From Mesorhizobium temperatum (lineage in GTDB: Bacteria; Pseudomonadota; Alphaproteobacteria; Rhizobiales; Rhizobiaceae), in the NCBI RefSeq assembly GCF_002284575.1, contig NZ_NPKJ01000041.1:124431-188430 (forward strand): a stretch of DNA of 64,000 bases, read 5' to 3'. Below the pieces are notes generated by a model that did not search any database, was not told the DNA's origin, and worked only from the letters and a program-made list of their open reading frames with translations. Below are positions 26,071 to 42,780 of this stretch, piece after piece. Position numbers and translations under genes: made by a program. The first letter of the stretch is position 1, and the number at the start of each line of letters is the position of its first letter.

Positions 26071-26928
26071 TTAGCGCTGGATGGACCAAGCGGCGCGCAG
26101 GTCGTTGGCCTGGGCGGTCCTGAGGCCGCAAGCAGTCAGGGCGCCTTTGGTCGCCGTTACGAGCGCGGCATTGTCCTTGGCGGTTGTGCCGTCGGCCAGA
26201 GTAAAATTGTTCTCGAACCCGACGCGGGCATGGCCGCCCAGCAGCGCACCGGCCGTAACGCAAGCGGTTTCTTCCCGACCGAAGGCGCAGACCATCCAGT
26301 GCGCGAAGCGTGGGCGGTCATGCGCAAGGAAGGGAAGCAGGTCGGCCGGTCGCGAAACCTGTCCCGGCGTGTAGCGGCCGAGCACATAGAGCACCGGGAT
26401 GTCGTCGAAAGGCACCAGCCCGCGCTGCTGCATGGCGGCTAGGGCCGAAGCCTCTTCGGGCGCGTAGAGGATCATCTGAGGGGCGATCCGCTCGCTCTTC
26501 AGCCACCACAGGAACTCCGCGAAAGCGGTCTCGTGGGCAGCGTCCGGCACCAGTTCGCGCAGCGCCAGCGAAACCGCCTCAGGGCGGGTAGCGCGAACAA
26601 TCGCCATCTGCTCGGCCGGCTGGTATCGGCCGACCGCTTCGCTGGTGATCTGGATGATCAGCCGCTCGCCTACCGCATCGCGTATCGCTTTCGTCGTCTC
26701 GCGATAAGCGTGCGCGTCGAGCAAATGGCCGCCATCGCGATCGCGGACATGCGTATGGATCATAGCGGCACCCGCCTCGAGGCAGGCGGCGGCGGTCCGG
26801 GCCAGTTCCTGGGGGTCGATCGGCAGGGCAGGGTGGTCTTGCTTGCCACGCCGTCCACCATTCGGCGCAACGGCGATCGCCGTCGGTGCGATAAACCCGG
26901 GGCCGGTCACGTCCCTGTCGACGGTCAT
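26071..26928 (-). CDS. BKACE family beta-keto acid cleavage enzyme (DUF849)
   Basis: 285 residues, normal for the family. These zinc TIM-barrel enzymes cleave a beta-keto acid with acetyl-CoA, giving acetoacetate and a CoA ester; Kce of lysine fermentation is the prototype. Metal-binding AAMIHTHVRDRDGGHLLD (HxH, ~53-70) and the C-terminal GGHARVGFENNFTLADGTTA (~229-248) are seen. The substrate is not readable. It is divergent from a class III aminotransferase, which could supply the keto acid, with a palindrome between them. Confidence 0.88.
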   Translation of the reverse strand: MTVDRDVTGPGFIAPTAIAVAPNGGRRGKQDHPALPIDPQELARTAAACLEAGAAMIHTHVRDRDGGHLLDAHAYRETTKAIRDAVGERLIIQITSEAVGRYQPAEQMAIVRATRPEAVSLALRELVPDAAHETAFAEFLWWLKSERIAPQMILYAPEEASALAAMQQRGLVPFDDIPVLYVLGRYTPGQVSRPADLLPFLAHDRPRFAHWMVCAFGREETACVTAGALLGGHARVGFENNFTLADGTTAKDNAALVTATKGALTACGLRTAQANDLRAAWSIQR

Positions 26929-26961
26929 AGGTGCAGTCCAATCGTTTCAGTATTGCGCACT

Positions 26962-26979
26962 ATGTAACATATGTTGCAT
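26962..26979. promoter_or_regulatory. Palindromic operator in the BKACE/aminotransferase intergenic region
   Basis: ATGTAACATATGTTGCAT is an 18-base palindrome with one mismatched pair, centred between divergent genes 95 bases apart. A related half site, TGTAACAAGCAT, occurs at 29231-29242 just upstream of the RpiR gene. The RpiR regulator encoded next door is the likely ligand-controlled binder; this is inference. Confidence 0.55.
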
Positions 26980-27022
26980 GATAGGTTCGCTCCAAATCGC
27001 GCCATCGTCAATCGAGGAAAGC

Positions 27023-28345
27023 ATGACACACATCCTGCATCGCCAGATCCATGCGACCCTGCCCGTCGCGGCTGGCGGCAAGGGTATCGAACTCTTCGAC
27101 CGCGATGGCCGCGCCTATATCGACGCGTCAGGCGGCGCGGCGGTTTCCTGCCTCGGCCACAGCCATCCCGACGTGACGGCCGCGCTCCACGCACAGGCCG
27201 ACAAGCTCGCCTATGCCCACACCAGCTTCTTCACCAACGAGCCGGCCGAGACATTGGCCGACAAGCTCGTCGCTGGCGCACCGCAAGGTATTAGCCACGC
27301 CTATTTCGTGTCCGGCGGCTCCGAAGCGGTGGAGGCGGCGCTCAAGATGGCACGGCAGTTTTTCGTCGAAACTGGCAAACCCGAGCGGCGAAACGTCATC
27401 GCCCGCCGACAAAGCTATCACGGCAACACGCTCGGCGCTCTTGCTGTCGGGGGTAATGAGTGGCGCCGCGCCCAATTCCGCCCGTTGCTGATCGACACGC
27501 ATCACGTCGAGCCATGCTATGCCTACCGCTTCCAGGAAGCCGGTGAGAGCGAGGGGGCCTACGGCCTGCGCGCCGCCAAGGCGCTCGAGGATAAAATTCT
27601 CGAACTCGGTCCGGACACCGTCATGGCCTTCGTCGCGGAACCTGTCGTCGGCGCGACAGCAGGAGCGGTGCCTGCCGTTCCTGGCTATTTCGGGCGCATC
27701 CGGGAAATCTGTGACCGCTACGGTGTGCTCCTCATCCTCGACGAGGTGATGTGCGGCATGGGCCGCACCGGGACGCTGCACGCATGCGAGCAGGACGGTG
27801 TCGCGCCCGACCTGATGACAATCGCCAAAGGCCTCGGCGGAGGCTACCAGCCTATTGGTGCGGTGCTGCTTTCACGCCGCATCTTCGACGCGTTCGCCGA
27901 AGGCTCCGGCTTTTTCCAGCACGGCCACACCTACATATGCCATCCGATGGCCTGCGCAGCAGCCCTTGCCGTCCAGGAGGTGATCGCTCGCGACGATCTG
28001 CTCGCCAATGTTCGGGCGATGGGCGCACACCTTTCGCGGCGACTGGGCGAACGGTTCGGCAACCATGCCCATATCGGCGACATTCGCGGGCGTGGCCTTT
28101 TCATGGGACTTGAGCTGGTCGAAGACCGGTCGTCGAAAGAGCCGTTCGATCCGGACCGCAAACTAAATGGGCGCGTCAAGCGCGAGGCGATGGCGCGCGG
28201 ACTGCTGGTCTATCCCGCGGGGGGCACGATCGACGGCGTCCGCGGCGATCATGTGCTGCTTGCGCCGCCCTTCATCATAGACGCCGCAGCAATCGATGCG
28301 GTTGTCGAACGGCTCGGCGACGCGATAGACGCTGCAGTGGCATAG
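27023..28345 (+). CDS. Class III (omega) aminotransferase, PLP dependent
   Basis: 440 residues from the ATG at 27023 with GAGGAAAGC upstream; the frame is open further back but overlaps the BKACE gene. Fold-type I motifs: DASGGAAVSCLGHSHPDV (~33-50), SGGSEAVEAALKMARQFF (~98-115), LLILDEVMCGMGRTG (the Asp that holds the PLP ring) and TIAKGLGGGYQPIGAVLLS with the Schiff-base Lys at ~269. Its gene context suggests transamination of an imported amino acid or amine into a keto acid that the BKACE enzyme cleaves. Confidence 0.93.
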   Translation: MTHILHRQIHATLPVAAGGKGIELFDRDGRAYIDASGGAAVSCLGHSHPDVTAALHAQADKLAYAHTSFFTNEPAETLADKLVAGAPQGISHAYFVSGGSEAVEAALKMARQFFVETGKPERRNVIARRQSYHGNTLGALAVGGNEWRRAQFRPLLIDTHHVEPCYAYRFQEAGESEGAYGLRAAKALEDKILELGPDTVMAFVAEPVVGATAGAVPAVPGYFGRIREICDRYGVLLILDEVMCGMGRTGTLHACEQDGVAPDLMTIAKGLGGGYQPIGAVLLSRRIFDAFAEGSGFFQHGHTYICHPMACAAALAVQEVIARDDLLANVRAMGAHLSRRLGERFGNHAHIGDIRGRGLFMGLELVEDRSSKEPFDPDRKLNGRVKREAMARGLLVYPAGGTIDGVRGDHVLLAPPFIIDAAAIDAVVERLGDAIDAAVA

Positions 28346-28357
28346 CGCCAGCGCCCT

Positions 28358-29230
28358 TCATTCCGGCAGATAGGCACCGAACGCCTGTAACTCCAATTCC
28401 GTCTCCCTGACACGAGCCGCGGCTGCCGGCCCGCTGCGCGCCAGCATCGTTGCAGCCAGCGCTTCCACGATAGCCATAGCTGCGGCTACCGACGGGAAGA
28501 AAGACGGGCTGTCGGTAGAGAATCGCAATGTAACGTCCGCATGCCGCGCGATCGGAGCAGCCACGCTGTCGACGATCGCGATAATCGGAACGCTGTGTCG
28601 TTGCGCAGCCTCCATCACCGGCCCGAGTTCACGCGAATAGGGCGAAAAGCCGATCGCGACGACCGCTTCCCTCTTTCCAAGCGCTGCGAGTTCCGCCTCG
28701 ATCGCACCGCCGTCGCCGCCGAGCAGCGTGACGTCGCGCCGAAACATCCGGCAGAGATAGACGAGCGCGTGGGCGGGCGCGCGGCAGCTTCGGAACCCGG
28801 CGACGCGTATGCGCTGTGCCTTCTCCAGTATCGCGCAAGCCCTTGCTATTTCTTCGCTGCCGTTGGCCGCTTCGGCCGCCGCCAGATTGGCAACCGTCGT
28901 CCTCAGCGATTCCGCGAAAATCGCCTCCGACCCGCGCTTGACAAGCGCATCGGCCCTTGCCGCGAAAGGCGCCTTGCCGGAGCGCAGCCGGTCCTCGAAC
29001 GGCTTGCGCAGCGCCGCCCAATCACCGAAGCCCAGCCGCCGCGCCAATCGCACGAAGGTCGTCGGTGTCACCTCTGATCGCGCGGCCAGAACCCGCATGG
29101 AAACCAGCGCCACCTCGTCGGGATGATCGACCAGGAATCGCGCCGCCTTGCGCAGTTCTGAGCTCAATTCGGGGAGTTCGGTCAATATGCGCGCCAGAAT
29201 CGCGTCGAAACCCATCTCCCGCGTATTCAT
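28358..29230 (-). CDS. RpiR/MurR family transcriptional regulator
   Basis: 290 residues from MNTREMGFDAILARI; starts further upstream (up to 29281) cannot be excluded. N-terminal HTH_6 domain (~5-80: LSSELRKAARFLVDHPDEVA then LAARSEVTPTTFVRLARRLG) and a SIS sugar-phosphate-binding-like domain (~110-250: ILEKAQRIRVAGFRSCRAPA, VVAIGFSPYSRELGPVMEAA). It lies between the aminotransferase and the divergent TAXI transporter, so it likely controls the whole BKACE-aminotransferase-TAXI locus. Confidence 0.9.
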   Translation of the reverse strand: MNTREMGFDAILARILTELPELSSELRKAARFLVDHPDEVALVSMRVLAARSEVTPTTFVRLARRLGFGDWAALRKPFEDRLRSGKAPFAARADALVKRGSEAIFAESLRTTVANLAAAEAANGSEEIARACAILEKAQRIRVAGFRSCRAPAHALVYLCRMFRRDVTLLGGDGGAIEAELAALGKREAVVAIGFSPYSRELGPVMEAAQRHSVPIIAIVDSVAAPIARHADVTLRFSTDSPSFFPSVAAAMAIVEALAATMLARSGPAAAARVRETELELQAFGAYLPE

Positions 29231-29347
29231 TGTAACAAGCATTTCCCTTGATTGATAAAGCGCAACAATCGTAGCATGCATCGACGTGCCTTGACACTAA
29301 AACACCGGACGGCCGCGACGGCACGCAAAGTACCAAGGGAGAACCAG

Positions 29348-30331
29348 ATGAAACATGCCCGGACTGCACGCCATGGAGCGCAGATCGCCGCCTTGTCGGC
29401 CGCGCTGCTGTTTTCGGCCAGCGCAATGGCGCAGCAGAATTTCGTTACCATCGGGACCGGTGGCGTCACCGGCGTCTACTACGCCGCCGGCGGTGCTATC
29501 TGCCGCCTGCTCAACAAGGATCGTAAGACACACGGCATCCGCTGCTCGGTCGAATCGACCGGCGGATCGGCATTCAACGTGAACACGATCAAGGAAGGCG
29601 AACTCGACTTCGGCATGGCCCAGTCCGACGTCCAGTACAACGCCTACAAGGGGCTGGAATCATTCAAGGACGGTGGCGCCCATACCGACCTGCGCGCGGT
29701 TTTCTCGATCCATCCGGAGCCGTTCACGGTCCTGGCGCATCCGAATGCCGGCGTGACGAAATTCGAGGACTTCAAGGGCAAACGTTTCAACGTCGGCAAT
29801 CCCGGTTCCGGGACACGCGCTTCCATGGAACGTCTGCTCAGTGCGATGGGCTGGACGTTGGCCGACTTTTCGCTCGCATCGGAGTTGAAGGCTGACGAGC
29901 ACGGCCCGGCGCTCTGCGACGGCAAGATCGACGGGTTCTTCTACGGCGTCGGCCATCCTTCCGCGAACATCCAGGATCCGACGACCACCTGCGGTGCCAA
30001 GCTGGTGCCGTTGACTGGAGAAGTCGTGGACAAGCTCGTCGCCGAGAATCCTTACTACGCCAAGGCGATCATCCCAGGCGGCCTTTACGCAAACAATCCC
30101 GACGATACCGGGACTTTCGGCGTGCTCGCCACGCTGGTGACTTCGGCCAAGGTTCCCGATGAGAGCGTCTATCAATTGACCAGGGCGGTGTTCGAGAATT
30201 TCGACGAGTTCAAGTCGCTGCATCCAGCCTTCGCCAATCTCGATCCGGCCAAGATGGTGTCGGAGGGGAATTCCGCGCCGCTGCATCCGGGCGCTGAAAA
30301 ATACTTCAAGGAGAAGGGCTGGCTGAAGTAA
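29348..30331 (+). CDS. TAXI family TRAP transporter solute-binding protein
   Basis: 327 residues from the ATG at 29348 (GGGAGAACC upstream). The signal peptide ends at SASAMA. The mature start [20 protein letters not shown] is the TAXI hallmark, and [15 protein letters not shown] and [18 protein letters not shown] are also typical. It binds the substrate in the periplasm and hands it to the fused permease downstream. TAXI proteins commonly carry dicarboxylic or amino acids such as glutamate; the ligand here is unknown. Confidence 0.94.
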
Positions 30332-30399
30332 GCTTCGTGACCTGACGACAGTCCGGCGGATCCAGCGGACCCGCCGGGCCATCCGCAACAGGAGGCGTC

Positions 30400-33003
30400 A
30401 TGAGCGAAGTGAGGGGACAACCGGCCGGCGTCGATCTCGAAGAGCTCGAACAGCTTGTCGCGGAGGCTGATACGGGTGGCCGGCATCCGAGCGGAATAGT
30501 CGCTCGAATCCTGCTCTGGGTTGCAGTTGCCTGGTCGCTTTTCCAGCTCTGGTACGCTTCGCCTTTGCCGTTCGTGTTCGGCTTCGGCATCCTCAATGAT
30601 ACGGAAGCGCGCGCCATCCATCTCGGCTTCGCGCTGTTTTTGACGTTCCTCGCCTATCCGGCGCTGAGATCCTCTCCCCGCGATCGTGTGCCGCTGCTTG
30701 ACTGGGTGCTGGCCGTGGTCGGCGGGTTTGCCGGCGCCTACCTCTTTCTCTTTTACGTCCAGCTTTCCGGACGGCCGGGGCAGCCGACCACGCTCGATCT
30801 CGTTACCGGCACCGTTGGCATCCTGTTGCTTCTCGAGGCGACGCGCCGCGCGCTCGGCCTTCCGATGGTGGTCGTGGCATGTGTCTTCATCTTCTACACC
30901 TTTGCCGGCCAGTACATGCCGGACGTGATTCAGCATCGCGGCGCATCGCTCAACAAGTTTCTCAACCATCAATGGCTGACCACCGAAGGCGTCTTCGGGA
31001 TTGCACTTGGTGTGTCGACGAGCTTCGTCTTTCTCTTCGTCCTGTTCGGTACGCTTCTGGAAAAGGCAGGCGCAGGCAACTGGATGATGCAGATCTCCAT
31101 CGCGCTGCTCGGCCATCTGCGCGGCGGCCCTGCGAAAGTCGCCGTGGTCTCATCGGCTCTCAACGGCGTCGTGTCCGGCTCGTCCGTCTCCAATGTGGTT
31201 TCAGGCGGCATCTTCACCATCCCGCTGATGAAGCGCACCGGCCTTTCCGGCGTCAAGGCGGGTGCCATCGAGGCTTCAGCCTCGATCAACGGCCAGATCA
31301 TGCCGCCGGTCATGGGTGCGGCCGCCTTCCTGATGGTCGAATATGTTGGCATTCCCTATTCGGAGATCGTCAAGCACGCGCTGTTGCCGGCGGTCTTCTC
31401 CTATATCGCGCTGCTCTATATGGTTCATCTCGAAGCGATAAAGATGGGCCTGAAGACGATCCCGCAGCGTCCGACGCCGGCAAGAGAACGGATGCTGCGG
31501 ATGGGGCTGGGACTGTCCGGCAGCGTTCTCGCCGTCTGTATCGTCTATTACGGCATCGTTGCGATCCAGGCTGTCTTCGGCGGGACCGCGCCGCCGGTGC
31601 TCGCAATCGCCGGCGTCGCTCTCTACGTCACCTCCGTCTGGTATTCCTCCCGCTATCCGGACCTCGCACTCGACGATCCGAACGCGCCAATCCTGGAACT
31701 GCCGCGCGCCTGGGACGTCACGCGGACCGGGCTCGATTTCCTCATCCCGATCGCGGTGCTTCTGTGGTGCCTGATGGTCGAGCAGATGTCGCCCGGCCTC
31801 TCGGCATTCTGGGCGACCCTGTCGATCCTCGGTATCGTCGCCACCCGCAAGCCGCTGATGGCCGTGTTCCGTAAAGAAAACCTCGCCGCCTCAGTGCGGG
31901 CTGCCTGGGACGACCTGATCGACGGGCTGGCGCTCGGCGCCCGCAACATGATCGGCATCGGTATCGCCACGGCCACCGCCGGCATCGTCGTCGGCACGAT
32001 CACGCTGACCGGTCTTGGCCTGATGATGACGGAACTCGTCGAGTTCATCTCCGGCGGCAACGTCATCCTGATGCTGATCCTCATCGCCGCGATCAGCCTT
32101 GTGCTCGGCATGGGTATTCCGACCACCGCAAATTACATCCTGGTCGCGACGCTGATGGCGCCGGTGGTGGTCGATCTCGGCGCGCAGGCCGGACTGCCAA
32201 TCCCGCTGATCGCGGTCCATCTCTTCGTCTTTTACTTCGGCATCATGGCCGACATCACCCCGCCCGTCGGGCTGGCGGCCTTCGCTGCGGCGGCGATTTC
32301 CAAGGAAGACCCGATCGCCACCGGCTTCCAGGGCGCGCTCTATTCGCTGCGCACGGCGATCCTGCCGTTCGTCTTCATCTTCAATCCGGCGATCCTGCTG
32401 ATCGGAGTCGACACCTGGCCCCAGACGATCTGGGTGGCTACCGTGTCGTTGATTGCAATATTGCTGTTTTCGGCCGCGACCATGAACTGGTTCGTGATCA
32501 AAAGCCGTCTGTGGGAAAGTGCGGCGCTGCTGCTCATCTGCTTCACGCTGTTTCGGCCGGACTGGTGGCTCAATCAGGTGTCGCCGCCTTACGAGGAATT
32601 GCCGGCGAGCGAGTTCCTGTCGGCGGTCGCGCAGACGCCGGCCGATGGCCGCATCAATTTCGTCGTCGAGGGCGTCGACCTCATGGGCGAAGATGTACGC
32701 AAAACGGTCAACGTGCCGCTCGGCGAGCCGGGCGAGCCGCTGGAGCGGCTGCGCGGCATCGGTCTTACCATCACGCAAGCGGGCGACGCGCTGATGATCA
32801 GCAATGTCGATTTCGGATCCTACGCCAAACGCATTGGGCTGGATGTCGGATATGACGTCGTGGCCGTGCTCAGAAAGGCCGACCAGCCCTCGAGCCTCAT
32901 TCCGATCGGCCTGGCGCTCGCTGCGGCCACCGGCGTCGCCGGGCTGCAGTTTGCGCGGGCGCGCAAGCAGGCGGACAGGAAGGAAACCGGGCCGGCGCGC
33001 TGA
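30400..33003 (+). CDS. TAXI-type TRAP transporter fused permease (4TM + 12TM)
   Basis: 867 residues with GGAGG just upstream of the ATG. An N-terminal DctQ-like section (~30-130) is fused to the large DctM-like subunit (~135-730), as in all TAXI systems. Typical segments are GVVSGSSVSNVVSGGIFTIP (~262-281), ASASINGQIMPPVMGAAAFL and GMGIPTTANYILVATLMAPV (~569-588). A cytosolic or periplasmic DUF3394-like tail (~730-850) follows, containing VNVPLGEPGEPLERLRGIGL. Transport uses a sodium or proton gradient. The stop at 33003 lies just 28 bases before the left end of the Tn3-type insertion. Confidence 0.94.
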   Translation: MSEVRGQPAGVDLEELEQLVAEADTGGRHPSGIVARILLWVAVAWSLFQLWYASPLPFVFGFGILNDTEARAIHLGFALFLTFLAYPALRSSPRDRVPLLDWVLAVVGGFAGAYLFLFYVQLSGRPGQPTTLDLVTGTVGILLLLEATRRALGLPMVVVACVFIFYTFAGQYMPDVIQHRGASLNKFLNHQWLTTEGVFGIALGVSTSFVFLFVLFGTLLEKAGAGNWMMQISIALLGHLRGGPAKVAVVSSALNGVVSGSSVSNVVSGGIFTIPLMKRTGLSGVKAGAIEASASINGQIMPPVMGAAAFLMVEYVGIPYSEIVKHALLPAVFSYIALLYMVHLEAIKMGLKTIPQRPTPARERMLRMGLGLSGSVLAVCIVYYGIVAIQAVFGGTAPPVLAIAGVALYVTSVWYSSRYPDLALDDPNAPILELPRAWDVTRTGLDFLIPIAVLLWCLMVEQMSPGLSAFWATLSILGIVATRKPLMAVFRKENLAASVRAAWDDLIDGLALGARNMIGIGIATATAGIVVGTITLTGLGLMMTELVEFISGGNVILMLILIAAISLVLGMGIPTTANYILVATLMAPVVVDLGAQAGLPIPLIAVHLFVFYFGIMADITPPVGLAAFAAAAISKEDPIATGFQGALYSLRTAILPFVFIFNPAILLIGVDTWPQTIWVATVSLIAILLFSAATMNWFVIKSRLWESAALLLICFTLFRPDWWLNQVSPPYEELPASEFLSAVAQTPADGRINFVVEGVDLMGEDVRKTVNVPLGEPGEPLERLRGIGLTITQAGDALMISNVDFGSYAKRIGLDVGYDVVAVLRKADQPSSLIPIGLALAAATGVAGLQFARARKQADRKETGPAR

Positions 33004-37915: not shown

Positions 37916-38965
37916 TCAGTCGGCGGTCAGCACGACTTTGACGCTCTGCGAGCGGTCGGCGGCCAGGCGAAACGCATCATGGGCCGAGGAAAGGGGGCGT
38001 TCGGCGGTCACCAGCTTCAGGACGTCGATATCCCCGCCGACGATGAGATCGACCGCCTGGTTGAATTCCGTGCCGAAGCGGAACGTGCCTTTCAGGTCGA
38101 TTTCCTTGGCCATCACCGCATTGGCCGCCACTGGGATCTGACCACCCGGAAGATTGCCGACCTGAACGACCGTGCCGCCGCGCCGGACGCTGGCGATCGC
38201 CGCCGCGAGGCCCGCTGCGGTGCCTGAAATCTCGAACGCGACATCGATCGCCTTGTCGGCCGCGAGCGCCTTGAGCTCGTCGTCGCCGCCGAACAGGTCG
38301 ATCGTCCTGTTTGCTCCAAGTTTGCTGGCGAAGGCGAGCGGCGCCTCGGCTATGTCGGCGACGGTGAGTTCGCCACATTCCTTGAGCCTGGCGGCGAGCA
38401 TGGTCAGGAGCCCGATGGGGCCGGCGCCGAACAGGATGACGTTGCGGCCGGCAATGTCGCCGGCCCGCGCCAGTGCGTGCAGGCTGACGGCAAGCGGTTC
38501 GGCGAGTGCCGCTGCCTGGTAGGCGATATCATGCGGAACCTTGACGCATTGCGCAGGCGTGGCGTCGAATACGCTGGCAAAACCGCCTTGCATGTGCGGC
38601 GTTTTCGACGCCGAACCCATGAAGTAGATGTTTTCGCAGAGATTGGCGCGGCCCTCCGCGCATCGGGCGCATTGTCCGCACCAGCGCGACGGGTTGACCG
38701 CCACGCGATCACCGACGGCAAGTCCGGGCGCGTCCGCTCTGATTTCCACAATCTCCCCGGCGACCTCGTGGCCAAGCACGAGCGGCGATGTGACGACAAA
38801 ATCGCCGGTCCGCGCATGGCGGAAATAGTGCAGGTCGGAACCGCAGATGCCGCCTGCGCCGAAACGCACGCGCACCATTCCCGGCGCGAGGGGGCCGAGC
38901 CGATGCTCGACGACGCGCAGATCCTCGGGGCCGAACAGCGTCGCGGCGACTGCGCTGTCGATCAT
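37916..38965 (-). CDS. Zinc-dependent medium-chain dehydrogenase, L-idonate 5-dehydrogenase type
   Basis: 349 residues from the ATG at 38965; the longer open frame up to 40981 is antisense of dctM and dctQ. Catalytic zinc ligands: GGICGSDLHYFRHARTGDF (Cys and His) and PLVLGHEVAGEIVE (His-Glu). Structural zinc cysteines: NPSRWCGQCARCAEGRANLC. The NAD(P) fold is NVILFGAGPIGLLTMLAARL (~171-190). It likely oxidises a sugar acid or polyol brought in by the DctPQM proteins encoded upstream; its start overlaps dctM (ATGA). The idonate assignment is by similarity only. Confidence 0.88.
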   Translation of the reverse strand: MIDSAVAATLFGPEDLRVVEHRLGPLAPGMVRVRFGAGGICGSDLHYFRHARTGDFVVTSPLVLGHEVAGEIVEIRADAPGLAVGDRVAVNPSRWCGQCARCAEGRANLCENIYFMGSASKTPHMQGGFASVFDATPAQCVKVPHDIAYQAAALAEPLAVSLHALARAGDIAGRNVILFGAGPIGLLTMLAARLKECGELTVADIAEAPLAFASKLGANRTIDLFGGDDELKALAADKAIDVAFEISGTAAGLAAAIASVRRGGTVVQVGNLPGGQIPVAANAVMAKEIDLKGTFRFGTEFNQAVDLIVGGDIDVLKLVTAERPLSSAHDAFRLAADRSQSVKVVLTAD

Positions 38966-40368
38966 CGGATCAGTCCCATTTGCGTCGGCAGCCACAGCGT
39001 GATGGCGGGGATGAAGGTGATCAGGATCAGCGCGACAATCAACGGGACGAGCCAGGGCAAAATCGCCATGGTCGTACGCTCGACCGATAGCTTGGCGACC
39101 CGCGAGAGGACGAACAGCACCATGCCGAGCGGCGGATGGAGGAGACCAATCATCAGATTGAGCGTCATGATCAGACCGAAATGCACCGGATCGATGCCGT
39201 AGAGGACCACGATCGGCAGGAGGATCGGCACAAGGATCGTGATCGCGGCGATCGTGTCGAGGAAACAGCCGACTACCAGCATCAGGATGTTCACCAGGAT
39301 CAGGAACACCCATTTGTTTTCGGTCAGCGATGTGATGAAGACCGAGAAGAGCTGCGCCGCCTGGCTGACCGTGAGCAACCAGGCGAAGATCGACGCTGCG
39401 GTGACAATGAAGAGGACCGACGCTGTCGTCTCGATCGTATCGAAACTCGCCTTGGCCAGGGCTGAAAGTGTCATCGTGCGATAGCGCACGAGCCCCAGAA
39501 ACAACGACCAGATGACGGCGGCCATGGCCGCTTCGGTCGGCGTGAACCAGCCCATGGTCATGCCGCCGATCAGGATGATCGGTGTCATGAGCGCCATAAC
39601 GGCGGAGAAGTCGAAGTACCAGTCGCAGGCGATCAGGATGACGAGCGCGATGCCGACGGCAATATTGAGCGACAGTCCCATCTCGACAAGGGCATAAACG
39701 GCCAGCGGAAAACAGCATACGACGGCCACCTCGATCGACGCGGCGGCGAGCCGGTTCAATTTGAACGGCGTGTCCGAACCCCAGCCCCGACGGTGGGCGA
39801 AGATCGCGACCGTCACCATCATCAGCACCGTCATGACGACGCCGGGAAGGATGCCGGCCATGAACAGCGCGCCGATCGAGACGTTGGCCATCATGCCGTA
39901 GATAACGAAGGGCAGCGACGGCGGGAAGATCGGGCCGAGCGTCGAGGACGCCGCGGTGACGCCGACGGCCGCCTCCACGGGATAGCCGTGGTCGCGCATG
40001 GCTTTGATCTCGATGGTGCCGATGCCGGCGGCATCGGCAAGGGCTGCGCCCGACATGCCGGCGAAGACCACCGATCCGACTATGTTCACCTGGGCGAGGC
40101 CGCCCTTCATCCAGCCGACAAGCGCCAGCGCGAAGGAATAGATACGCCCGGTGACGCCGGCGATGTTCATGAGATTGCCGGCGAAGATGAAGAACGGCAC
40201 GGCAAGCAGCGGAAAGCTCTCGACACCGGCGATCATGCGCTGCGCGGCAATGATGTCGGGCGCCACGCCATAGAAGACGAGATAGAGCAGCGACGACACC
40301 GCCATCGACACAGCGACGGGCACGCCGACCAGCATCAGGACGAGAAAGGCTCCGATCAGAAGCAGCAT
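38962..40368 (-). CDS. dctM: TRAP transporter large permease DctM
   Basis: 468 residues with about 12 membrane helices. Typical segments: FILVMLVGVPVAVSMA-like start, LLAVPFFIFAGNLMNIAGVT (~55-74), GSVVFAGMSGAALADAAGIG (~97-116) and LLHPPLGMVLFVLSRVAKLS (~410-429). It forms the ion-coupled channel subunit with DctQ. The stop overlaps the dehydrogenase start; dctQ ends 3 bases upstream. Confidence 0.95.
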   Translation of the reverse strand: MLLLIGAFLVLMLVGVPVAVSMAVSSLLYLVFYGVAPDIIAAQRMIAGVESFPLLAVPFFIFAGNLMNIAGVTGRIYSFALALVGWMKGGLAQVNIVGSVVFAGMSGAALADAAGIGTIEIKAMRDHGYPVEAAVGVTAASSTLGPIFPPSLPFVIYGMMANVSIGALFMAGILPGVVMTVLMMVTVAIFAHRRGWGSDTPFKLNRLAAASIEVAVVCCFPLAVYALVEMGLSLNIAVGIALVILIACDWYFDFSAVMALMTPIILIGGMTMGWFTPTEAAMAAVIWSLFLGLVRYRTMTLSALAKASFDTIETTASVLFIVTAASIFAWLLTVSQAAQLFSVFITSLTENKWVFLILVNILMLVVGCFLDTIAAITILVPILLPIVVLYGIDPVHFGLIMTLNLMIGLLHPPLGMVLFVLSRVAKLSVERTTMAILPWLVPLIVALILITFIPAITLWLPTQMGLIR

Positions 40369-40371
40369 GGC

Positions 40372-40944
40372 CTATTCCCCCAGTCCGTCGAACGCGGCGG
40401 GGCGCTCCAGCGCCGAGTAGCCACGGCGGATGTTGCCGATGAATACCTGGATGGCGCGCAGCATCATCAGCACGAAACCGGCGAAGACGGCGTAGAAGAC
40501 GACGTTGCGCGGCAGGTTGATGGTGACCATCCGCTCGCGGTGGACGATCCCGACATAGCGCCAGAGGAGCCAGGACATATAGGCGAAGAAGCAAATGGTA
40601 ATCAGATTGACCGCGAGCGCCAGGTAGCGCCCCACCCCAGCGGGGAGATAGTGATAGAGCACGTCGACGTGGATGTGGCGCGTGGTGCGCGTGCACATGA
40701 CCGAGCCCAGGAAGACCACGACGACGAGGCAGTTGATGGCGATCTCCTCGGTCCAGGCAAAACTGTTGTTCATGACGTAGCGGGTGAAGAACTGCAGGAA
40801 CACGCAGAGCGACATGCCCCAGAACACGGCCAGCGTGACCCAGTCCTCCACCGCGTATCGCGACAGATCGACGGGTGCGGTTTCTTCCTCGAAGGCATGC
40901 GCCAGTTCTTCGGGGGTAACCTGGGTGTGGACCTCTTGGGTCAT
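40372..40944 (-). CDS. dctQ: TRAP transporter small permease DctQ
   Basis: 190 residues from the ATG at 40944, preceded by CGGAG; a TTG two codons earlier is less likely. Four membrane helices, with WVTLAVFWGMSLCVFLQFFT near residues 33-52 and the conserved FAWTEEIAINCLVVVVFLGS (~64-83). It partners with DctM and binds DctP. Same operon as dctP, dctM and the dehydrogenase. Confidence 0.93.
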   Translation of the reverse strand: MTQEVHTQVTPEELAHAFEEETAPVDLSRYAVEDWVTLAVFWGMSLCVFLQFFTRYVMNNSFAWTEEIAINCLVVVVFLGSVMCTRTTRHIHVDVLYHYLPAGVGRYLALAVNLITICFFAYMSWLLWRYVGIVHRERMVTINLPRNVVFYAVFAGFVLMMLRAIQVFIGNIRRGYSALERPAAFDGLGE

Positions 40945-41024
40945 CGGCAAGCTCCGGAAACCGTTGGGACAGCGGGCTCAACAGACCCGACGCGCCTGTC
41001 GCGCCGGGCCCGGATTGATGCGGG

Positions 41025-41999
41025 TTACTTGACGGCGCGGATCGCCTCCCAATCCTCCTTGCGGTAGCCGAACTCCTCGAACGTCACCTTCTCCATCACG
41101 TTCTTTTCGAAATCGGCGCGATCGACTTCGGTGACGGTGAGACCGCGCTCCTTGAAGGTTTCAACCAAGGCTTTCTCGCGATCGACGATGATCTTTGTCG
41201 CTCGCGCGGCGGCTTCCTGCATCACCTCGGTAAAAATCGCCTTGTCCTCGTCCGACAGTTGCGACCAGCGCGATTGCGACACGATCGTATTGAGATGATC
41301 GACGATGTGCCCAGTCAGGACGATGTGCTTTTGCACTTCGTAGAACTTCTTGGCGTCGATCGTCGTCAGCGGGTTTTCCTGCGCTTCCACCGTGCCCTGC
41401 TGCAAGGCGAGATAGACCTCGGCGAAGGCGATCGGCGCGGTGTTGGCACCGCAGGCGCGCGGCATGGCGAGGTAGGCCGGCACATCGGGCACGCGGATCT
41501 TCAGGCCCTGCATGTCGGCGCATTTCTCGATCGGCCGATTGGAGGTCGTGTGACGGGTGCCGTAGTAGGTGGTCGCCGTGATGTGATGGCCGGACGCCTC
41601 TTCGTAGCCGCCGGTCAACTCCTTGTATTTGTCGCTCTTGGTGTAAGCGAGCAGATGATCGGCGTCGCGGAAAGTGAACGGGAAGTAGGTCACGCCGATC
41701 GGCGGGAATTCGCGGGCGGCGAAGCTCGATCCGGAGATGATGATATCAACCGTGCCGAGGGTCAGCCCCTGGTTGATGTCGGCTTCCTTGCCGAGCTGCG
41801 AGGCCGGGAAGACGTCGATCGTATAGCGGCCGTCGGTGCGCTTCTTGATCTCTTCCGCCGCCCACACCGACTCGGTGTGGAAGGGTTCGGACGTTTCGTA
41901 GACGTGAGCCCATTTCAGCGCGGTTTGTGCAGAGGCCGAAGCCATGGGCAGAGCGATTGCGGCGATCGTGCCGAGCAGAACGGCGTATTTTCTCAACAT
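41025..41999 (-). CDS. dctP: TRAP transporter solute-binding protein DctP
   Basis: 324 residues from the ATG at 41999 (a second ATG at 42002 is too near the GGAGG). The signal peptide ends at ASASAQ. Mature features: LKWAHVYETSEPFHTESVWA, GRYTIDVFPASQLGKEADIN, then CADMQGLKIRVPDVPAYLAM (the conserved ligand Arg) and AFAEVYLALQQGTVEAQENP. These fit sugar-acid binders of the DctP family. It heads the operon dctP-dctQ-dctM-dehydrogenase and is followed upstream by the GntR gene on the same strand. Confidence 0.94.
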   Translation of the reverse strand: MLRKYAVLLGTIAAIALPMASASAQTALKWAHVYETSEPFHTESVWAAEEIKKRTDGRYTIDVFPASQLGKEADINQGLTLGTVDIIISGSSFAAREFPPIGVTYFPFTFRDADHLLAYTKSDKYKELTGGYEEASGHHITATTYYGTRHTTSNRPIEKCADMQGLKIRVPDVPAYLAMPRACGANTAPIAFAEVYLALQQGTVEAQENPLTTIDAKKFYEVQKHIVLTGHIVDHLNTIVSQSRWSQLSDEDKAIFTEVMQEAAARATKIIVDREKALVETFKERGLTVTEVDRADFEKNVMEKVTFEEFGYRKEDWEAIRAVK

Positions 42000-42060
42000 C
42001 ATATTCCTCCCTGTGATTGAAATTGACTGTTCCGACAGGATCCTCCCGGTCGGCTGACTC

Positions 42061-42780
42061 CTATTCCGCGACCTCCCTGGCCGCGGATTTCTCACCGAAA
42101 TTGCGTGAGAATCTCAATTGCGACTGACGCAGATGTTCCTGCATGGCGGCCTTGGCCCGTTCGGGCTCGCGCGCCGCGATCGCGTCGCGCACCGCGCGAT
42201 GCTCCTCCGCGGCGGCCCGCCAGGATTCCCTGTTCTCGAAATAGCTCGACAGGCGTTCGAAATATGGGTTCATGCGCTGGTCGAAAAGCTCGCCGATGCA
42301 GCGCACAAGGACGGCGTTTCCGAGAATACCCGCCACCATCGTATGGAACTCGCGGTCGAGCGCGATCGTCGTCTTGGTCGGGTGAGGTATGTCCTCCATC
42401 CGGCGCAGCACGTCGTCCATATGTTCGATGTCGATCGGCCGAACATGGAGGGCGGCTTCGGCGGCGATCGCCCCTTCGATGAACTCGCGTGCCCGCAACA
42501 GCTCGAACGGGCCTTCATCCATCTCTGCCGTCAAAACGTCAGCACGCGGCCGGTCGGTGACGTAGATGCCGGAGCCGACGCGGATGCGTATGCGCCCCTC
42601 GACCTCGAGCGCAATCAGCGCTTCACGGACGGTCGGACGGGAGATGCCAAGCTGATCGGCCAGTTCGCGCTCGGTTGGCAGGCGATCGCCGACTGCGAAC
42701 TCGCCCGCGTCGATCAGCTGCCTGAGCTGATCGGCGATCTGTCGGTAAAGTCGACGCGGTTCAACGGCCTGGATCGGCAT
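42061..42780 (-). CDS. GntR family regulator, FadR subfamily
   Basis: 239 residues from the ATG at 42780 (a GTG two codons upstream is possible; neither has a clear ribosome site). Winged helix ~10-75: LYRQIADQLRQLIDAGEFAV, LPTERELADQLGISRPTVRE and ALIALEVEGRIRIRVGSGIY. FCD ligand domain ~90-230 with metal-binding Asp/His: LDREFHTMVAGILGN and EEHRAVRDAIAARE. It is transcribed toward the TRAP operon with a short gap, and probably senses the sugar acid or a breakdown product. Confidence 0.93.
   Translation of the reverse strand: MPIQAVEPRRLYRQIADQLRQLIDAGEFAVGDRLPTERELADQLGISRPTVREALIALEVEGRIRIRVGSGIYVTDRPRADVLTAEMDEGPFELLRAREFIEGAIAAEAALHVRPIDIEHMDDVLRRMEDIPHPTKTTIALDREFHTMVAGILGNAVLVRCIGELFDQRMNPYFERLSSYFENRESWRAAAEEHRAVRDAIAAREPERAKAAMQEHLRQSQLRFSRNFGEKSAAREVAE

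Follow-up and report, generated by a model that had tools for sequence, protein, structure and literature searches.

A putative RpiR-controlled gene cassette of Mesorhizobium temperatum for the breakdown of a glutamate-like amino compound, possibly beta-glutamate

To our knowledge, the TAXI transporters and the DUF849 (BKACE) enzymes are large families with few known substrates. Members of both occur together in a five-gene cassette at positions 26071-33003 of the stretch analyzed here, the 64,000 nucleotides (the window) at positions 124,431 to 188,430 of the forward strand of contig NZ_NPKJ01000041.1 in the 7.17-Mb genome of Mesorhizobium temperatum (assembly GCF_002284575.1). The cassette very likely serves the import and breakdown of a glutamate/glutamine-like amino compound. 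As a leading but tentative assignment, we regard it as an RpiR-controlled catabolic cassette for beta-glutamate, with 3-oxoglutarate as the intermediate.

The closest described importer is the glutamate TAXI protein VcGluP of Vibrio cholerae, in which the ligand is contacted by S40, V44, Y45, Y46, S75, Q93, H123, E125, G156, D157, Y200, M201 and G203. According to the excerpts of the paper used here, VcGluP binds L-glutamate better than L-glutamine and pyroglutamate, whereas aspartate, lysine, 2-oxoglutarate and adipate produced no shift (PMC11574862). Among the DUF849 enzymes, excerpted sources give E171 as the catalytic glutamate of PdKce (BKACE15), the E171L variant being inactive (PMC11961710), and name the catalytic Tyr145/Tyr173 and the zinc ligands (preprint PMC12871164). 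The corresponding part of the BKACE survey describes a DUF849 group "G6" with beta-ketoglutarate decarboxylation, as well as subgroups acting on negatively charged substrates and on beta-ketoadipate (PMC4922564). As for natural supply, beta-glutamate is given in excerpts as present at 730 mM in the marine ammonia-oxidizing archaeon Nitrosopumilus maritimus (PMC8269262) and, together with beta-glutamine, as one of the methanogen osmolytes (PMC1224877). No description of a breakdown route for beta-glutamate was found among the matches listed in a search of the open-access literature, and the sole match there joining the gene names of the cassette was, by its title, on neuraminic acid sensing.

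Gene content and recurrence of the cassette

Profile scans with Pfam and NCBIfam found all five genes of the original prediction in place and in the families it had named, as follows.

26071..26928, minus strand: DUF849/BKACE-family protein, 285 aa (PF05853, 211.6 bits; cut-off 24.8)
27023..28345, plus strand: class III pyridoxal phosphate (PLP) aminotransferase, 440 aa (PF00202, Aminotran_3, 324.6 bits; PRK07483, 801.9 bits, cut-off 485)
28358..29230, minus strand: RpiR-type regulator with a SIS domain and a probable N-terminal helix-turn-helix (HTH) domain (SIS, 44.5 bits; cut-off 25)
29348..30331, plus strand: TAXI-family TRAP solute-binding protein, 327 aa, with a putative glutamate-type pocket (TIGR02122, TRAP_TAXI, 341.1 bits)
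30400..33003, plus strand: fused TRAP QM permease with a C-terminal DUF3394 domain, 867 aa (TIGR02123, TRAP_fused, 713.9 bits; PF11874, DUF3394, 196.7 bits)

The HTH_6 profile scored 26.9 bits on the RpiR protein, slightly under the curated cut-off of 28.3.

The recurrence of this gene set was followed in 129 loci with a best BKACE match of 38-98% identity, of which 24 came from relatives, 19 from named contigs, 13 from plasmid records (13 of 132 were opened) and 73 from samples of the class and phylum (7 of 55 foreign matches in the class sample were left out). A coverage filter on the BKACE protein removed two loci and 127 were kept. Neighboring genes were counted within 8 kb of the BKACE gene, where short contigs and limited flanks can hide some of them. 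The cassette aminotransferase was present in 98 of the 127 loci at 50% coverage, including the interrupted gene of Sinorhizobium meliloti (L086), and in 97 at 70% coverage; in 48 loci the aligned parts of the BKACE and aminotransferase genes lay at most 60 bases apart or overlapped. The TAXI gene was found in 68 of the 98 loci with the aminotransferase and in 1 of the 29 without it (raw counts), the GlnHPQ ABC system in 11 and 0, and RpiR in 71 and 0, respectively. As the loci included near-duplicates, they were also clustered at 85% identity, giving 106 clusters, of which 79 had the aminotransferase, 51 the aminotransferase with TAXI, and 9 the aminotransferase with GlnH.

The two importers never occurred together (0/127). 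All 11 GlnHPQ loci contained a C45 hydrolase gene, which was found in none of the 68 TAXI loci and, alone, in one further aminotransferase locus; annotated examples with GlnHPQ and C45 in place of TAXI are those of Shinella, R. leguminosarum and Paracoccus. An amide-type importer with an amide hydrolase, and an acid-type importer without it, fit a common acid inside the cell. The recurring linkage and the swapping of importers supported the earlier proposal that the genes form a common pathway.

The closest named loci belonged to Mesorhizobium (BKACE protein 92-98% identical). Sampling of 385 alphaproteobacterial genomes showed the BKACE type in 56, and sampling of 398 genomes of the phylum in 32, with the own genome in each count, and not every one of the 56 class genomes carried the whole cassette. 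RpiR, aminotransferase, BKACE, TAXI and permease genes are annotated in a single row in Thalassospira marina, and outside the Alphaproteobacteria a plasmid of Photobacterium (L097) carries aminotransferase, BKACE and TAXI genes in a row.

Several loci showed further features. In L086, on pSymB of S. meliloti (CP073680), the cassette aminotransferase matched in four pieces (L086:11668-12990); the BKACE and RpiR frames are open there, the stretch showed no cassette importer, and the annotation places a trans-3-hydroxy-L-proline dehydratase gene a few kilobases off. A congener retains a truncated BKACE fragment (G009:C1:6257646-6258002; loci L030 and L061), with the other cassette genes not nearby, as if the cassette had been lost. 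In L102, L104, L108, L112 and L123, the aminotransferase, BKACE and TAXI genes directly follow an MlaE-ATPase-MlaD-lipoprotein transport operon, with an amidase gene further upstream (representatives were scanned), and in L104 and L112 a LysR gene lies in between. A gene of a gamma-glutamyltransferase cluster lies at most 7 kb from the BKACE gene in L052, L054, L130, L134, L164 and L170 (the members of L170 and L134 were scanned). Functions for handling acetoacetate or malonyl-CoA were sought by Pfam scans of 30 proteins from the clustered neighbors, and none was decisive; the proteins included mla-type transport proteins, amidase, LysR, EAL/GGDEF, gamma-glutamyltransferase and molybdopterin oxidase. 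In the window itself, a second, DctP-like TRAP system with an alcohol-dehydrogenase-like gene (37916-42095, named by reading) appears unrelated to the cassette.

Putative operators and shared regulation

Two sites were recognized in the intergenic regions of the cassette.

26962..26979, no strand, BKACE/aminotransferase gap: probable palindromic operator of 18 bases, ATGTAACATATGTTGCAT, with core 26963-26978 and 8 of 9 base pairs symmetric
29261..29276, no strand, rpiR/TAXI gap: second, weaker putative operator (12.6 bits, second best in the window; reversed-window maximum 9.2)

The first is the 18-base palindrome that had been reported between the divergent BKACE and aminotransferase genes. 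The half site reported near the RpiR start was also present and is conserved in close relatives, while the best matrix match in this gap lies about 30 bases further from rpiR; in L074 and L078, the counterpart of this second site in the rpiR/TAXI gap reached 15.4 bits. Because the second operator would fall inside a longer open reading frame from 29281, the ATG at 29230 is the more probable start of rpiR.

Elsewhere in the 7.17-Mb genome the 16-base core of the palindrome was not matched, even when one mismatch was allowed. Its identity across 16 aligned intergenic regions was 0.98 versus a mean of 0.91, ranking 5 of 77 windows. A motif similar to the palindrome, approximately TGNAACANNTGTTNCA, was detected upstream of the BKACE, aminotransferase or rpiR gene in distant loci. 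A matrix of 22 words gave 80 matches in the 129 loci versus 6 on reversed sequences, a partly circular comparison as the words came from the same loci. The loci with less than 58% BKACE identity, which contributed no training word, were considered separately. Of these, 18 of 32 with aminotransferase and RpiR carried the operator ahead of a core gene, as did 1 of 26 with aminotransferase but without RpiR and 0 of 27 without either, the reversed controls giving 1, 0 and 0; loci with RpiR offered more upstream regions to search, which biased the comparison somewhat in their favor. In the identity range that supplied the training words, the operator was present in 37 of the 38 loci with both aminotransferase and RpiR. 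As the operator was found nearly only in RpiR loci, the motif follows RpiR, and the palindrome is, judged from the sequence, very probably a real operator. Shared regulation of the cassette is well supported, and the regulon proposed earlier gained from both the recurring linkage and the recurrence of the operator with RpiR in distant loci.

Ligand type and active-site residues

The TAXI protein of the window aligned without gaps to VcGluP (8s4j) and retained 10 of the 13 ligand contacts, the changes being S40G, D157T and M201G. V44, Y45, S75, Q93, H123, E125, G156 and G203 were kept in all 67 cassette TAXI proteins compared, in all of which S40 was replaced by Gly and D157 by Thr, Gln, Ala or Ser, and only one of which retained M201. 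The S40G, D157 and M201 changes were considered as a mark of beta-glutamate binding and rejected, as they were shared by non-cassette proteins in a control of 30 further loci (a class sample together with the second TAXI of the own genome; four of the 30 are cassette loci). In Shinella, the binding protein was assigned to GlnH by the NCBI model (418 bits versus a cut-off of 303; one GlnH was scanned) and its companion to the C45 hydrolases (248 bits versus 85). A glutamate/glutamine-like ligand is thus well supported by the alignment to VcGluP, the pocket residues and the GlnH score, which bore out and narrowed the import of an amino compound that had been predicted.

The conservation of the BKACE protein was examined in 128 aligned sequences, namely those of the 127 loci and the window. 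H58, H60, R62, Q93, T95, E97, E125, C214, F216, R235, G237, E239 and N240 were invariant. The active-site residues in the window protein are R26, H58, H60, E97, R124, E125, Q151, I153, Y155, R235, E239 and N240. The zinc ligands H58, H60 and E239 were kept in 128/128 sequences, and Y155, equivalent to the catalytic Tyr145 of Kce, was Tyr in 124. However, the aligned position of the catalytic glutamate, two before this Tyr, was Ile153 in 127 sequences and Leu in the remaining one. In the six paralogs of the own genome, the catalytic Glu was present in five, an Asp followed the zinc Glu in all six, and Phe occupied the position of Tyr155 in three. Glu97, Glu125 and mostly Arg124 (118/128) are new in comparison with Kce and these paralogs. 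Arg26, conserved in 121/128 sequences, was found in 97 of the 98 sequences of the aminotransferase set plus the window, the remaining one having an unread letter. It aligns opposite a Glu of Kce, which we take to be Glu14, the residue binding the substrate amine.

The structure model of the window protein is a TIM barrel (pLDDT 87.7). The nearest solved chains were DUF849 proteins (2y7f, Z 31.1, root-mean-square deviation 2.8, 265 aligned), followed by cis-epoxysuccinate hydrolase and ObcA/Obc1. The active site of such barrels lies at the C-terminal ends of the strands. In the model, Thr95, Ile153 and Arg235 are located at or within one residue of these ends, and Glu97, Glu125 and Tyr155 no more than three residues past them. 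The sequences point to a subclass that lacks the known catalytic base and has a rebuilt active site. As the catalytic Glu of the characterized BKACEs is lost, the cleavage with acetyl-CoA assumed in the original prediction is not assured and appears doubtful.

In the aminotransferase, K269, presumably the PLP lysine, and D240 were invariant in 98/98 sequences, and the residues listed for substrate specificity gave no usable signal. In L055, L093, L158 and L159, all outside the cassette-aminotransferase set, a BKACE with the same pocket adjoins a dehydrogenase of a single sequence cluster; L055, L158 and L159 carry a more distant aminotransferase. The L055 dehydrogenase scored 277 bits to the carnitine 3-dehydrogenase model, under the cut-off, and is read as carnitine-dehydrogenase type, and that of L093 is annotated as 3-hydroxyacyl-CoA dehydrogenase. 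That BKACEs with the same pocket adjoin dehydrogenases of these types suggests a 3-oxo acid as the substrate, which makes the predicted transamination to a beta-keto acid plausible.

The loci concerned have an organization of their own. L055 (4390-11909), L158 and L159 contain a separate operon, in which a class III aminotransferase of a different type is accompanied by a carnitine-dehydrogenase-like enzyme, the same-pocket BKACE and FAD (flavin adenine dinucleotide)/ferredoxin reductase-like genes. On a plasmid of Microvirga ossetica (L093:5292-9837), genes for an IlvD-type dehydratase, a tricarboxylate-type binding protein, the 3-hydroxyacyl-CoA-type dehydrogenase and the BKACE lie in a row, possibly a pathway for a 3-hydroxy di-acid. 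In L127 (6747-8730) and L128, the BKACE gene directly follows that of a D-serine-dehydratase/BhcC-like PLP enzyme (467 bits in L127, cut-off 690), which might supply an acidic keto acid by a different route.

Proposed pathway, alternatives and known systems

The gene families, their recurring linkage, the importer swapping, the operator and the active-site changes were observed by computation. The substrate reading combines three lines, namely the glutamate/glutamine-like ligand, the presence of an aminotransferase, and the additional positive charge in the DUF849 pocket. Since beta-glutamate is the glutamate isomer that would give an acidic 3-oxo acid, 3-oxoglutarate, on transamination, it is the preferred candidate; the beta position of the amine, the identities of ligand and inducer, and every reaction step are inferred. 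The TAXI-TRAP system would import a beta-amino acid resembling glutamate, with beta-glutamate (3-aminoglutarate) as the most likely candidate. In other species, the GlnHPQ system would import its amide, beta-glutamine, and the C45 hydrolase would strip the amide. The class III aminotransferase would convert beta-glutamate into 3-oxoglutarate, from which the DUF849 enzyme, with Arg26 suited to an anionic side group, may form acetoacetate by decarboxylation. Cleavage of 3-oxoglutarate with acetyl-CoA to acetoacetate and malonyl-CoA would be less likely, as the catalytic Glu is missing. RpiR is assumed to repress from the palindromes before the BKACE and aminotransferase genes and before the rpiR and TAXI genes. 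The predicted order of import and transamination, with cleavage as a possible last step, is right in outline.

Several observations weigh against this assignment. The computed results do not indicate which carbon carries the amine. TAXI proteins not known in a cassette (L180, L183, L187, L189 and L190) have pocket letters seen in cassette TAXI proteins, so that the pocket does not discriminate between beta- and alpha-glutamate. In alignment, GlnH is close to alpha-glutamine binding proteins, and by our reading it presumably keeps the classical binding site; a beta-glutamine signature was sought in one GlnH and none was seen. Arg26 was absent in 6 of the 30 BKACEs outside the aminotransferase set. 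The dehydrogenase pairing is not limited to Arg26 enzymes, since a dehydrogenase of the same cluster, with a best model other than a carnitine one, also accompanies the Tyr26 BKACEs of L153 and L156. Neither importer lay within 8 kb in 19 of the 98 aminotransferase loci (one with C45; 18 lacked all three), nor RpiR in 27; contig ends may account for part of these loci. That the cassette DUF849 clade belongs to the decarboxylating G6 group, as excerpted from PMC4922564, is a guess.

The best surviving alternative, although unlikely, is a substituted alpha-glutamate or alpha-glutamine (e.g. hydroxy or methyl), which the aminotransferase would convert to an alpha-keto acid to be split or hydrolyzed by the altered DUF849 enzyme. 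The TAXI and GlnH pockets resemble alpha-glutamate/glutamine sites, the DUF849 active site is unlike that of usual BKACEs, and fold members with other chemistry (cis-epoxysuccinate hydrolase and ObcA) are among the nearest structures. However, the zinc ligands, R235 and Y155 (124/128) of the beta-keto acid enzymes are kept, and the same-pocket relatives adjoin 3-hydroxy-acid-type dehydrogenases. A different doubly acidic beta-amino acid, for example 3-aminoadipate, with classical BKACE cleavage (3-oxoadipate to acetoacetate and succinyl-CoA), is rather improbable. Arg26 agrees with it, as do the excerpted reports of BKACE subgroups acting on negatively charged substrates and beta-ketoadipate (PMC4922564), whereas the window BKACE reached 80.9 bits against the cut-off of 350 of the 3-oxoadipate model, the catalytic Glu is lost, and a TAXI pocket of the glutamate type would favor a C5 ligand, in line with the excerpted lack of a shift of VcGluP with adipate or aspartate (PMC11574862). 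It is more improbable still that the cassette imports ordinary L-glutamate or L-glutamine while the aminotransferase and DUF849 enzyme act on another, cell-made compound and share the regulator only. The transporter pockets are not visibly different from ordinary glutamate/glutamine types, but the same enzymes are accompanied by either of two unrelated importers, which share no locus and both of which almost disappear where the aminotransferase is lacking. A chance grouping of neighbors without functional meaning, for which no point was found, has a negligible probability, being contradicted by the recurring linkage and the operator in many loci.

The beta-glutamate assignment extends, with slightly more reserve, to the possibility that beta-glutamate and beta-glutamine are consumed in this way by many Alphaproteobacteria and certain other proteobacteria, through importers dedicated to them, a transaminase for beta-amino acids and a rebuilt DUF849 enzyme yielding acetoacetate. 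The cassette ties the TAXI and DUF849 families to one testable compound and offers a marker of potential beta-glutamate consumers; if the link is true, it could be relevant to the turnover of organic nitrogen in marine and soil environments.

Compared with the described systems, the cassette resembles VcGluPQM of V. cholerae in the ungapped alignment, most ligand contacts and the fused QM with DUF3394, and differs in the changes at S40, D157 and M201, which are, however, also found in non-cassette relatives. The DUF849 enzyme shares with Kce and BKACE15 (PdKce) the fold, the His-His-Glu zinc ligands, the Arg preceding the zinc Glu and the equivalent of Tyr145. In contrast, the catalytic Glu is replaced by Ile153 and the Asp after the zinc Glu by Asn240, and the cassette enzyme has the conserved Arg26, Glu97, Arg124 and Glu125. 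With the G6 group, as excerpted, it would share the substrate, the proposed 3-oxoglutarate being beta-ketoglutarate. The gene island in the excerpts of PMC12421898 is a carnitine BKACE island and different from the present cassette. As in the pathways with carnitine dehydrogenase and BKACE, the BKACE is accompanied by an enzyme that would make a 3-oxo acid; unlike them, the cassette has an aminotransferase and, judging from Arg26, probably a pocket for an anionic rather than a cationic substrate.

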